Assembly (NCBI RefSeq): GCF_011393335.1
Contig: NZ_CP049865.1
Coordinates: 1 to 64,000, forward strand
Origin: Propioniciclava coleopterorum
GTDB taxonomy: Bacteria > Actinomycetota > Actinomycetes > Propionibacteriales > Propionibacteriaceae
Length of the DNA stretch: 64,000 nucleotides
Reading direction: 5' to 3'
The translations under genes and the position numbers were made by a program. A model generated the notes under the pieces. The model was given only the letters and a program-made list of their open reading frames with translations. It was not told where the DNA came from and searched no databases. How positions within the stretch are numbered: position 1 is the stretch's first letter; each line of letters starts with the position of its first letter. Of this stretch, positions 31,490 through 34,249 are shown piece after piece.

Positions 31490-32161
31490 TCAGCCGCGCA
31501 GGTGCCCCAGCCGCGAGACGATCCAGTCGCCCAGGGACTGCACCAGCTGGACGATCACGATCAGGGCGATCACGGCCTCCAGCAGGACCGGCATGTTGAA
31601 GCGCTGGTAGCCGTACCGGATGGCGAAGTCGCCCACGCCGCCGCCGCCGATGACGCCGGCCATGGTGGAGTACCCGATCAGCGTCACCAGCGTCAGCGTG
31701 GCCCCCGCGATCAGGCCGGGCAGCGACTCGGGCAGCAGCGCCTTCCGGACGATGTCCCACGTCGTGGCGCCCATCACCTGGGCGGCCTCCAGCTTGCCGG
31801 GCGCGACCTCGCGCAGCGCCGCCTCGACGACGCGGGCGTAGAACGGGATCGCGCCCACGGCCAACGGAACGATCGCGGCGGTCTCGCCGTAGGCGGTGCC
31901 CACGATGAACCGGGTGAAGCTGATCAGCGCGATCATCAGGATCAGGAACGGCAGCGAACGGGCGATGTTCACCACGGCCCCGACCACGGCGTACAGCGGC
32001 CGGTTGGGGATGAGGCCGTCGGGCGCCCACAACCGCAGCAGGACGCCGACGGTGACGCCCAGCATGACGGTGATGAGGAACGACCAGCCGACCATCCACG
32101 CGGTCTGGCCCAGCGCCTTGAACAGCTCGGGCAGGGCCTCCTGCCAGGACACCTGGGTCAC
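31490..32161 (-). CDS. metI: Methionine ABC transporter permease
   Basis: Inner-membrane permease of 223 residues, third gene of metQ-metN-metI. Five hydrophobic segments are visible, with the BPD permease EAA-type loop EAALREVAPGKLEAAQVMGA followed by TTWDIVRKALLPESLPGL, and the MetI-like ends SFLITVMLGVTVGVLLRL and QRFNMPVLLEAVIALIVIVQ. GTG 32161 overlaps the metN stop (GTGA), so translation is coupled. It forms the channel for D/L-methionine uptake with the MetN ATPase. Confidence 0.9.
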   Translation of the reverse strand: MTQVSWQEALPELFKALGQTAWMVGWSFLITVMLGVTVGVLLRLWAPDGLIPNRPLYAVVGAVVNIARSLPFLILMIALISFTRFIVGTAYGETAAIVPLAVGAIPFYARVVEAALREVAPGKLEAAQVMGATTWDIVRKALLPESLPGLIAGATLTLVTLIGYSTMAGVIGGGGVGDFAIRYGYQRFNMPVLLEAVIALIVIVQLVQSLGDWIVSRLGHLRG

Positions 32162-33141
32162 AGTTGCACGCTCACTTCATGCTCGGCGAGGTAGGACGCC
32201 ACGGCCGCGCGGTCGTAGTGCCCCTCGGGGTGGCTCAGGGCGACGCGGAGGCGTCCGACCTTGCGGCCGGCGATCGCTTCCACGGCGCCCCCGACGATCG
32301 AGACGTCCAGGCCGAAGCGTCGGGTGAGCGCGGAGATCACGGCCTCCTGGGTGTTGCCCTGGGCGAAGCTCAGCACCACCGACTCCCCCACCCCGGCCAG
32401 CGCGGGGTCACCGACCGGGAGGAGGATGTCGGCGAGCCGACTGGTCGGGTCGGTGAGCAGGTCCAGCAGGTCGCCCTGCTCGACGACGCGGCCGGCCTCC
32501 ATGAGCGCAGCCCCGTCGCAGATCCGCCGGACGACCTCCGACTCGTGGGTGATCAGCACGACCGTCACCCCGGTGCGCGCGTTGATCTCCTTGATCAGGT
32601 CGAGGATCTGCTCGGTCGTGGCGGGATCCAGCGCCGAGGTCGCCTCGTCGCAGAACAGCACCTCGGGGTGGGCCGCCAGCGCGCGGGCGATCCCGACGCG
32701 CTGTTTCTGCCCGCCCGACAGCTGCGACGGGAAGGCGTCCGCGCGGCCCTGCAGCCCGACCAGGTCGATCAGCTCCGCGACGCGAGCACTGCGCTCGGCC
32801 GCGGGCACGCCCTGCACCTCGAGGGGGAAGGCGATGTTGCCGGCGGCGGTCCGGCTGTTGAGCAGGTTGAAGTGCTGGAAGATCATCCCCATCCGGTGCC
32901 GGGCGGCGCGAAGCTGGGACGCGGACAGCGTGGTGAGTTCCACGTCGCCGATGGTCACCTGCCCCGAGGTCGGTCGCTCCAGGGCGGTCAGGCAGCGCAT
33001 CAGGGTGGTCTTGCCGGCGCCGGAGCGGCCCAGGATCCCGAAGATCCGGCCCGTCCCGACGTGCAGCGAGACGTCGTCCACCGCCGTGACGCTGCCCGCG
33101 CCCGAGGGATAGACCTTCGTCAGGGAGGTGACCTCGATCAC
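32158..33141 (-). CDS. metN: Methionine ABC transporter ATP-binding protein
   Basis: ATPase of the MetNIQ importer, 327 residues. Walker A GRSGAGKTT (about residue 39), signature LSGGQKQRVGIARALAAHP, Walker B VLFCDEATSALDPATTEQ and switch His LITHESEVV are all present. The C-terminal NIL domain (about 250-327; SFAQGNTQEAVISALTRRFG, GRKVGRLRVAL) is the methionine-sensing domain that trans-inhibits MetN transporters. It begins at GTG 33141, 7 nt after the metQ stop, and overlaps metI. Confidence 0.93.
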   Translation of the reverse strand: MIEVTSLTKVYPSGAGSVTAVDDVSLHVGTGRIFGILGRSGAGKTTLMRCLTALERPTSGQVTIGDVELTTLSASQLRAARHRMGMIFQHFNLLNSRTAAGNIAFPLEVQGVPAAERSARVAELIDLVGLQGRADAFPSQLSGGQKQRVGIARALAAHPEVLFCDEATSALDPATTEQILDLIKEINARTGVTVVLITHESEVVRRICDGAALMEAGRVVEQGDLLDLLTDPTSRLADILLPVGDPALAGVGESVVLSFAQGNTQEAVISALTRRFGLDVSIVGGAVEAIAGRKVGRLRVALSHPEGHYDRAAVASYLAEHEVSVQL

Positions 33142-33148
33142 GACCGGC

Positions 33149-34006
33149 TCACTTCCCCGAACCCTCGGCGGGCAGCACCGAGCCCTTGAAGGTGTCGGTG
33201 ATGAACTGCCGCAGCTGCGGGCTGGTGAGCGCCTCGTCGACCTTCTTGACGCGCGGGTCGTCCTTCAGGCCGGCCTTGACGACCAGGACGTTGGCGTACG
33301 GGTTGTTCTCGGCCGACTCCAGGGCCAGCGCGTCCGTCGCGGGGGTGAGGCCCGCCTCCAGGGCGTAGTTGCCGTTGATCACCGACAGCTGCACCTTCGG
33401 GTCGTCGAGCGTCGCCGCGAGCTGCGGGCGGTCGATCTTGAGCCAGCCGACGTTTTTGGGGTTGCCCGTGACGTTCTTCTCCGGGGTGATCTGGGAGTAG
33501 TCCAACCCGGGCTGGTCGGCCTTCACGTCGAGGGTGATCAGGCCGGCGTCCTGCAGCAGGAACAGGGCGCGCGCCTGGTTGGTCGCGTCGGCCGGGATCG
33601 CGATGACCGCACCCTCGGGGACGGCGTCGAGCTTGGCCTTCTTCGAGTACAGGCCGAGCGGCTCGACGTGGATCGGGGCGAGCGCGACCAGGTCGGCGCC
33701 GCTGTGCTTGGCGTTCCAGTCGGTCAGGTACGGGACGTGCTGGAAGAAGTTGGCGTCGAGATCCCCCGCGTTGACGAGCTGATTCGGGTCGATGTCGCCG
33801 GAGATCTCGGTGACCTGGATCTTCACGTCGCCGAGCAGCCCCTGCTTCTCGGCCTCCTTCAGCAGCAGCGCGTGCGGCGTGACGTCAGCCATGATCCGCA
33901 GCGGCTTCGACGGATCCGGGGCACCGGCGTTCGCGGCACCGCAGCCGGTCATGACGAGTCCCGTCGTGACAAGGGCTGCGACCGTGGTGATCAGGCGTCG
34001 AAACAT
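33149..34006 (-). CDS. metQ: Methionine-binding lipoprotein
   Basis: Substrate-binding lipoprotein of the NlpA/MetQ family, 285 residues. The signal peptide ends in a lipobox (GLVMTGC, Cys near residue 22). The mature part has IMADVTPHALLLKEAEKQGL, NQLVNAGDLDANFFQHVPYL, GAVIAIPADATNQARALFLL and ENNPYANVLVVKAGL, all family landmarks. ATG 34006 has a GGAATGG-like site upstream. It is first in the met operon and is preceded by a 206-bp leader with a Met-rich peptide and a hairpin. Confidence 0.92.
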   Translation of the reverse strand: MFRRLITTVAALVTTGLVMTGCGAANAGAPDPSKPLRIMADVTPHALLLKEAEKQGLLGDVKIQVTEISGDIDPNQLVNAGDLDANFFQHVPYLTDWNAKHSGADLVALAPIHVEPLGLYSKKAKLDAVPEGAVIAIPADATNQARALFLLQDAGLITLDVKADQPGLDYSQITPEKNVTGNPKNVGWLKIDRPQLAATLDDPKVQLSVINGNYALEAGLTPATDALALESAENNPYANVLVVKAGLKDDPRVKKVDEALTSPQLRQFITDTFKGSVLPAEGSGK

Positions 34007-34100
34007 GATGAATCCATTCCTCATTCTGCGTTGATGGCTGGCTTTGGTTGCCGACAGCACGGGACCGCGAGCGAGGCTGGCAGTACGAACGACATTCCAG

Positions 34101-34129
34101 AATCGCTCGACCCGTCCGGGGAGCGATCG
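34101..34129 (-). promoter_or_regulatory. Leader hairpin between Met-rich peptide and metQ
   Basis: On the minus strand, arms ATCGCTC and GAGCGAT enclose a second small stem CCC/GGG. It lies 12 nt downstream of the leader-peptide stop and about 95 nt before metQ. No U-tract follows, so it is not a standard terminator. It could be part of an attenuation switch. Confidence 0.5.
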
Positions 34130-34140
34130 GAACCGTGCCG

Positions 34141-34212
34141 TCAGGCGGGCATTCGCCGACAGCACATGGGCATCATCATGACGGCGTTCGCCGCGGAGAT
34201 GAGCTGACCCAT
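34141..34212 (-). CDS. Met/Cys-rich leader peptide of the metQNI operon
   Basis: A 23-codon frame with ATG 34212 and GGGAG just upstream. The second half reads MMMPMCCRRMPA: three consecutive Met codons, two more Met nearby and two Cys codons, then a TGA stop at 34141-34143. Five Met in 12 residues ahead of a methionine importer is the classic design of an amino-acid attenuator, where ribosome stalling on scarce Met-tRNA changes downstream RNA folding. The sequence is directly visible; the regulatory role is inference. Cys-rich leader peptides with such a role are known in actinobacteria. A Met version would be less usual. Confidence 0.6.
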   Translation of the reverse strand: MGQLISAANAVMMMPMCCRRMPA

Positions 34213-34219
34213 GGCTCCC

Positions 34220-34249
34220 AGCCTACGTGATCGGACGCGGGGGCTGTCA
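34220..34249 (-). promoter_or_regulatory. Candidate promoter of the metQNI leader
   Basis: Minus strand: TGACAG (34249-34244), an 18-bp spacer, then TAGGCT (34225-34220), about 7 bp before the GGGAG of the leader peptide. Partial sigma-70-like match; inferred. Confidence 0.35.

Follow-up and report, generated by a model that had tools for sequence, protein, structure and literature searches.

In Streptomyces lividans TK24 the metNIQ operon is preceded by metL, a leaderless leader carrying Cys and Met codons (ending ..RCMCRRMCAF before its stop), which was classed in 2021 as methionine-dependent (PMC8079986). In mycobacteria, leaderless poly-Cys upstream open reading frames (uORFs) have been observed (Shell 2015, PMC4633059), and in later papers these are described as Cys-responsive attenuators (Canestrari 2020, via PMC9031893, PMC13236596 and PMC9094748), the attenuation in M. 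smegmatis being presented as translational (PMC9031893, PMC13236596). For Mycobacterium, P. acnes and B. longum, too, Cys leaders have been predicted, with no obvious terminator, and Rho was suggested (Seliverstov 2005, PMC1262725).

The leader described here lies in front of the methionine importer operon metQNI of Propioniciclava coleopterorum, in a stretch of 64,000 nucleotides which was analysed as a whole (the window). Actinobacterial Cys leaders and a Cys/Met leader before metNIQ being known, the window leader is a variation of that kind, and the novelty which the first-pass annotation had attached to a Met leader controlling an importer is anticipated by metL (PMC8079986). Like metL, it is probably leaderless, carries Cys and Met codons, has an ending of the R-M-C-A type and is without an intrinsic terminator; it shares the CGA ATG codon pair of the metL-type leaders of related Streptomyces, and the features that mark this type, Cys codons and an R-M ending with CGA ATG before a methionine importer operon, are all found in it. 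The differences are that in the metL-type operon metN comes first, that nucleotide-level conservation is seen in the Streptomyces leader, which can moreover pair by complementarity with the region of the metN Shine-Dalgarno sequence, no comparable element lying before metQ, and that the metL-type leaders do not match the model of three RNA segments (1, 2 and 3) that describes the window leader.

With the mycobacterial uORFs, as characterised in those papers, the window leader has in common the probable leaderless start (indicated by a TANNNT box, see below), the tandem Cys codons near the end and the position before sulphur genes, whereas the targets named there are cysteine-metabolism genes and not metQNI; neither the uORF nor its relatives match the NCBIfam Cys-leader families. 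The leaders of Seliverstov 2005 (PMC1262725) are similar in their Cys runs near the stop and in having no obvious terminator, but no conserved hairpins were found in them, in contrast to the covarying competing pairings reported below. In Rhodobacterales, the uORFC-8-2 motif upstream of cysS (PMC8632094) likewise has two tandem Cys codons in its first attenuator stem, but ends in an intrinsic terminator and belongs to another phylum and another gene. In the literature searched, no description was found of a competing-segment layout with covariation, of a cysK/metQ pair in one genome or of an invariant CGA ATG. Our reading, to which we assign a probability of roughly two in three, is that the metQNI leader would act as a ribosome-mediated attenuator with competing segments 1, 2 and 3, responsive to Cys-tRNA and possibly to Met-tRNA.

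The leader frame and its copies in the family

The operon, the leader and its signals are arranged as follows:

31490..32161, minus strand: metI permease (PRK10782, E 2e-59; PF00528)
32158..33141, minus strand: metN, ATPase with C-terminal NIL domain (domain and family matches)
33149..34006, minus strand: metQ, NlpA/MetQ lipoprotein (PF03180, E 2e-63; TIGR00363)
34019..34022, minus strand: Shine-Dalgarno sequence GAGG of metQ (from the sequence)
34141..34212, minus strand: leader peptide MGQLISAANAVMMMPMCCRRMPA with its stop codon (from the sequence and conserved relatives)
34150..34155, minus strand: CGA ATG codon pair (22 of 24 leaders in one metQ/metN set, 36 of 36 in another)
34171..34179, minus strand: Met triplet (three ATG codons), variable among relatives
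34220..34225, minus strand: putative -10 element TAGGCT, 7 nt 5' of the uORF start (TANNNT in 18 of 18 Propionibacteriaceae leaders)
34244..34249, minus strand: putative -35 element TGACAG, separated from the -10 box by an 18-nt spacer

The 23-codon frame noticed in the first-pass annotation is indeed present at 34212-34141 on the minus strand, ending in MMMPMCCRRMPA and followed by metQ, metN and metI; among the 969 short ATG/GTG frames (10-45 amino acids) of the window, it is the sole one with internal MMM and CC. The ribosome-binding site assigned to it at that stage is not borne out: the GGGAG lies only 2-3 nt 5' of the ATG and is not conserved in relatives, and a TANNNT box is found instead about 7 nt 5' of the start in all 18 Propionibacteriaceae leaders, for which reasons the uORF start is probably leaderless, rather than led by a Shine-Dalgarno sequence. 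The -35 element was not called by a consensus scan. As had been supposed, no S-box-like riboswitch is present; across the whole window Rfam recognises just one element, a tRNA, and with relaxed settings the leader still yielded no credible match, so that SAM/S-box and other known riboswitches were rejected. An intrinsic terminator was looked for in the leader region and none was found.

A second short frame (34095-34021, minus strand; MSFVLPASLAVPCCRQPKPAINAE, beginning MSFVLPASLAVPCCRQ) has its stop codon at the metQ Shine-Dalgarno sequence and weakly matches NF042939, the Rv2334A Cys-leader family (E 0.01). It was rejected as a conserved leader, having no counterpart in close relatives, in which only the RNA sequence of segment 3 is kept.

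The leader frame before metQ is kept in 13 Propionibacteriaceae loci from several genera, the named members of the family sample including Brooklawnia and a 'Propionibacterium sp.' MAG. The metQ leaders of close relatives are MGHIIATTHCVMMMPQCCRRMSA, MGHIISAANAVWMMPLCCRRMCA, MGQIISAANAVMMMPTCCRRMCA, MHNSSIAAHRGQCVVMCMCCRRMSL and MHTVPSAATPVARLCTCCRRMSG, that of Brooklawnia is ..MMMPMCCRCMPA and that of G031, from another genus, is ..MPVMCCAPMMRRMFG. Among the metQ loci the length from the start to CC varies with preservation of the reading frame; CC itself occurs in 18 of 18 Propionibacteriaceae leaders (metQ and cys leaders taken together), and by its codons this is the short leader, rich in the regulated amino acid, that is expected of an attenuator. 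The Met triplet is replaced in relatives by WMM, VVMCM or ARLCT, and the conserved core of the metQ leaders consists of CC and one Met codon ahead of the stop; of the conserved Met-rich uORF proposed for relatives, the uORF with its CC is therefore retained (13 loci) and the Met triplet is not.

Model R1, a covariance model built from seven loci, recovered eight more loci of the family, of which five lie at metQ and three at DUF4395, the E-value per genome ranging between 9e-13 and 1e-3; the weaker matches that were inspected were due to chance, mostly within genes. In the three DUF4395 loci (genus g9) the element is followed by the DUF4395 gene, a thioredoxin-like gene and cysE, and the leaders end CMCCCRKS, CTCCCR and CMCCCRKS. 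A second model (R2), trained on metQ and DUF4395-operon leaders with the cysK copies absent from training, identified another copy in the window's genome before cysK (G000:C1:1406906-1407020, minus strand, locus L144; E 9.5e-8). Its CRCC leader, MTNASGIGAARAAAHVMCRCCRPRA, ends ..VMCRCCRPRA at the stop codon and is almost without Met codons; the cysK protein itself passes the curated threshold of TIGR01139. The same model found copies before cysK in G011 (leader MTNASGADAVSAVFPLMCRCCRHQA) and before DUF4395-thioredoxin-cysK in G125 (leader MLSAQSSAAVFGCMRSAMCCCRVR). In total, the element was found in few genomes, 17 of 392 of the order, and no match outside the family was obtained in 395 genomes of the class, a narrow distribution that weighs against the attenuator reading. 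The DUF4395-thioredoxin operons that continue toward cysE or cysK (L124, L125, L127, L143) share the putative Cys attenuator, and DUF4395 is thereby linked with the synthesis of cysteine.

Cysteine and methionine as candidate signals

The 12 metQ leaders have 1-6 internal Met codons (median 4) and the 6 cys leaders 1-2 (Mann-Whitney p 0.0026, uncorrected for kinship), and a Met codon stands at a distance of two or three codons from the stop in 12 of 12 metQ leaders versus 0 of 6 cys leaders; by these counts, the added Met codons are particular to the metQ/metN version of the leader. A sensor of methionine only, as had been proposed, is difficult to reconcile with the CC of all 18 leaders and with the occurrence of the same switch before cysK, where it is nearly Met-free. 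Because the switch is common to cysteine-synthesis genes and CC is universal, cysteine is likely to be the parsimonious shared signal, a contribution of Met being also possible.

As to the sulphur economy of the organism, no PF01507 gene (PAPS/APS reductase or CysD type) was found in the window's genome by a search that was positive in 14 of 14 control genomes; assimilatory sulphate reduction via the PF01507 route seems to be absent, and reduced sulphur from imported methionine would thus be a plausible need. The search of the same genome for reverse-transsulphuration genes returned cysK and one weak match.

A tentative extension of the Cys attenuator is that Cys and Met codons are both read, the shortage of either charged tRNA stalling the leader ribosome and turning metQNI on, with the cysK version, devoid of Met codons, sensing Cys only. 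The abundance of Met codons in metQ leaders and their placement near the stop point in this direction, as does the R-M near the stop in 36 of 36 sampled Streptomyces-type metN leaders, with Met-Cys repeats such as RMCRMCHMCRMCA; a pure Cys sensor would leave the Met enrichment of metQ leaders unexplained. However, the Met cluster is absent in L006 (one internal Met) and variable elsewhere, the conserved Met sits in the nucleotide-conserved CGAATG, in which selection on RNA and on the residue is inseparable, and every leader begins with fMet, so that Met shortage reduces initiation too. If both codons count, a Cys attenuator common with cysK would have gained Met codons before the importer, and either shortage would lead to import, through a competing-segment switch new for actinobacterial Cys leaders; we put this forward as a conjecture.

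All 36 sampled metN leaders of Streptomyces and relatives, beside which twelve further ones were examined, contain Cys and Met codons and, close to the stop, the CGA ATG pair. In the Streptomyces leaders the nucleotides themselves are conserved, third positions as much as the others, so that residue and RNA selection are inseparable there. The Arg codon that precedes the final Met of the leader (34155-34150, minus strand, in the window; L153-L192, L070-L111) is CGA in 36 of 36 Streptomyces-type metN leaders, versus 0 of 106 for their other Arg codons, and is nearly as constant in Propionibacteriaceae; since it persists where inserts break the pairing between leader and Shine-Dalgarno sequence, this pairing alone does not explain it. 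In L070, L081, L097, L101 and L111 (Streptomycetaceae and relatives) the metN leaders vary as Met-Cys repeats, and a TTTACT box lies just 5' of the leader start.

Competing RNA segments and the output step

The segments concerned are the following:

34158..34165, minus strand: segment 1, GTGCTGTC, at the pair of Cys codons TGC TGT, complementary to segment 2
34135..34142, minus strand: segment 2, GACGGCAC, over the uORF stop codon TGA, pairing with segment 1 or segment 3
34064..34128, minus strand: region enclosed by segments 2 and 3, with possible GATCGCTC/GAGCGATT or GAGCGA/TCGCTC helices (from folds; these alternatives vary among relatives)
34053..34060, minus strand: segment 3, second copy of GTGCTGTC, rival for segment 2 (from the covariation of pairing 2:3)

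The repeat GCCGACAGCAC, already pointed out in the first-pass annotation, is found at 34050-34060 and 34155-34165, and the alternative pairings that it was thought to support correspond to the competing pairings 1:2 and 2:3, of which 2:3 covaries; segment 3 lies about 45 nt upstream of metQ. By folding, the two pairings are exclusive, with predicted energies of -21.3 kcal/mol for the 1:2 hairpin and of -45.1 kcal/mol for 2:3 including its interior. In an alignment of 19 sequences, standard pairs make up 94.7% of the cells of pairing 2:3, both partners having changed in nine cells, and its covariation score was reached by 0 of 500 shuffles, slid versions all scoring far lower; in 14 hand-cut segment triples 2:3 is 92.1% paired (0 of 500 shuffles), and in hand-cut segments 1:2 is 90.2% paired (5 of 500), the sequences being kin, so that shuffles overstate significance, the 19-sequence alignment (A8) having been fitted to the structure and the A9 segments hand-picked from folds. 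Complementary changes are seen as GACAACGCC/GGTGTTGTC in L007 (G031), as GACAGCG/CGCTGTC in L125 (G175) and as GACAACAC/GTGTTGTC at the cysK copy. The whole-leader fold of the window sequence alone is unremarkable (z -1.0), and the switch signal stems from sequence comparison; with RNAalifold, the covariation term of a first 7-sequence alignment was not favourable. Some folds hinted at a further layer of switching through an inner helix (a/a'/a2), which was discarded as inconsistent across the 19 sequences. The conserved leader, the competing pairings, the 2:3 covariation and the cysK twin all rest on sequence, and mutually exclusive pairings, one of them including the sensor codons, are by their predicted layout those of an attenuator.

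In the attenuator model, transcription would begin at or beside the uORF ATG, and ribosomes would translate the 23-codon leader. When Cys-tRNA (possibly Met-tRNA) is plentiful, the ribosome would reach the stop codon and leave, segments 1 and 2 would pair, segment 3 would be free and metQNI expression would be low; when charged tRNA is short, the ribosome would wait at TGC TGT and cover segment 1, so that segments 2 and 3 would pair and metQNI would be expressed. Methionine import would serve as a sulphur source, cysteine being the signal common to the metQ and cysK switches. The leaderless start, the sensing and the direction of the response are parts of the model that we infer.

For the output step, the least certain part of the model, Rho-dependent termination in the untranslated stretch, in the state with segment 3 free, is preferred with low confidence over masking of the Shine-Dalgarno sequence. 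The bias of C over G expected of a Rho site is modest in the untranslated stretch before metQ; in Streptomyces it is strong, ranking at the 98th-99th percentile among windows of the locus. Translation attenuation as for the mycobacterial Cys leaders, by which the leader would mask the metQ Shine-Dalgarno sequence until the ribosome stalls, appears rather unlikely: it would agree with the translational attenuation described for M. smegmatis in the papers cited above, and in Streptomyces the leader core CGTT..TGTCGA..GTGCGC has its complement in an invariant GCGCACTCGACAGTGACGG beside the start of metN, but no matching invariant element is found at the Propionibacteriaceae metQ, and predicted access to its Shine-Dalgarno sequence hardly changes from one state to the other (means of about 0.4 and 0.5), so that no clear masking is predicted. 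Since the Streptomyces leader core can pair beside the metN Shine-Dalgarno sequence and metQ has no such element, the two groups may have related leaders with different outputs.

It is very improbable that the GTGCTGTC copies are sites for a DNA-binding repressor and not RNA segments; an inverted repeat (GTGCTGTC..GACGGCAC) with a direct copy downstream would suit such a protein, but the copies change jointly with complementarity kept (L007, cysK, L125), whereas the sequence of a fixed operator should stay constant, and segment 1 is always over the Cys codons of the conserved frame. That the uORF is a functionless chance frame, frequent as short frames are (969 in the window), is hardly credible in view of its conservation across genera, of model E-values to 1e-28 and of the cysK paralogue within the same genome.

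Implications for sulphur regulation

Under the attenuator reading, a methionine importer would be tied to a cysteine-type RNA switch. For the Streptomyces metL leader, cysteine is suggested as a signal to consider beside methionine. In the window's genome, one RNA scaffold occurs as a natural pair, before cysK with mainly Cys codons and before metQ with Cys and Met codons, and this pair would allow the sensing codons, and the retuning of an attenuator by codon swap, to be tested directly.
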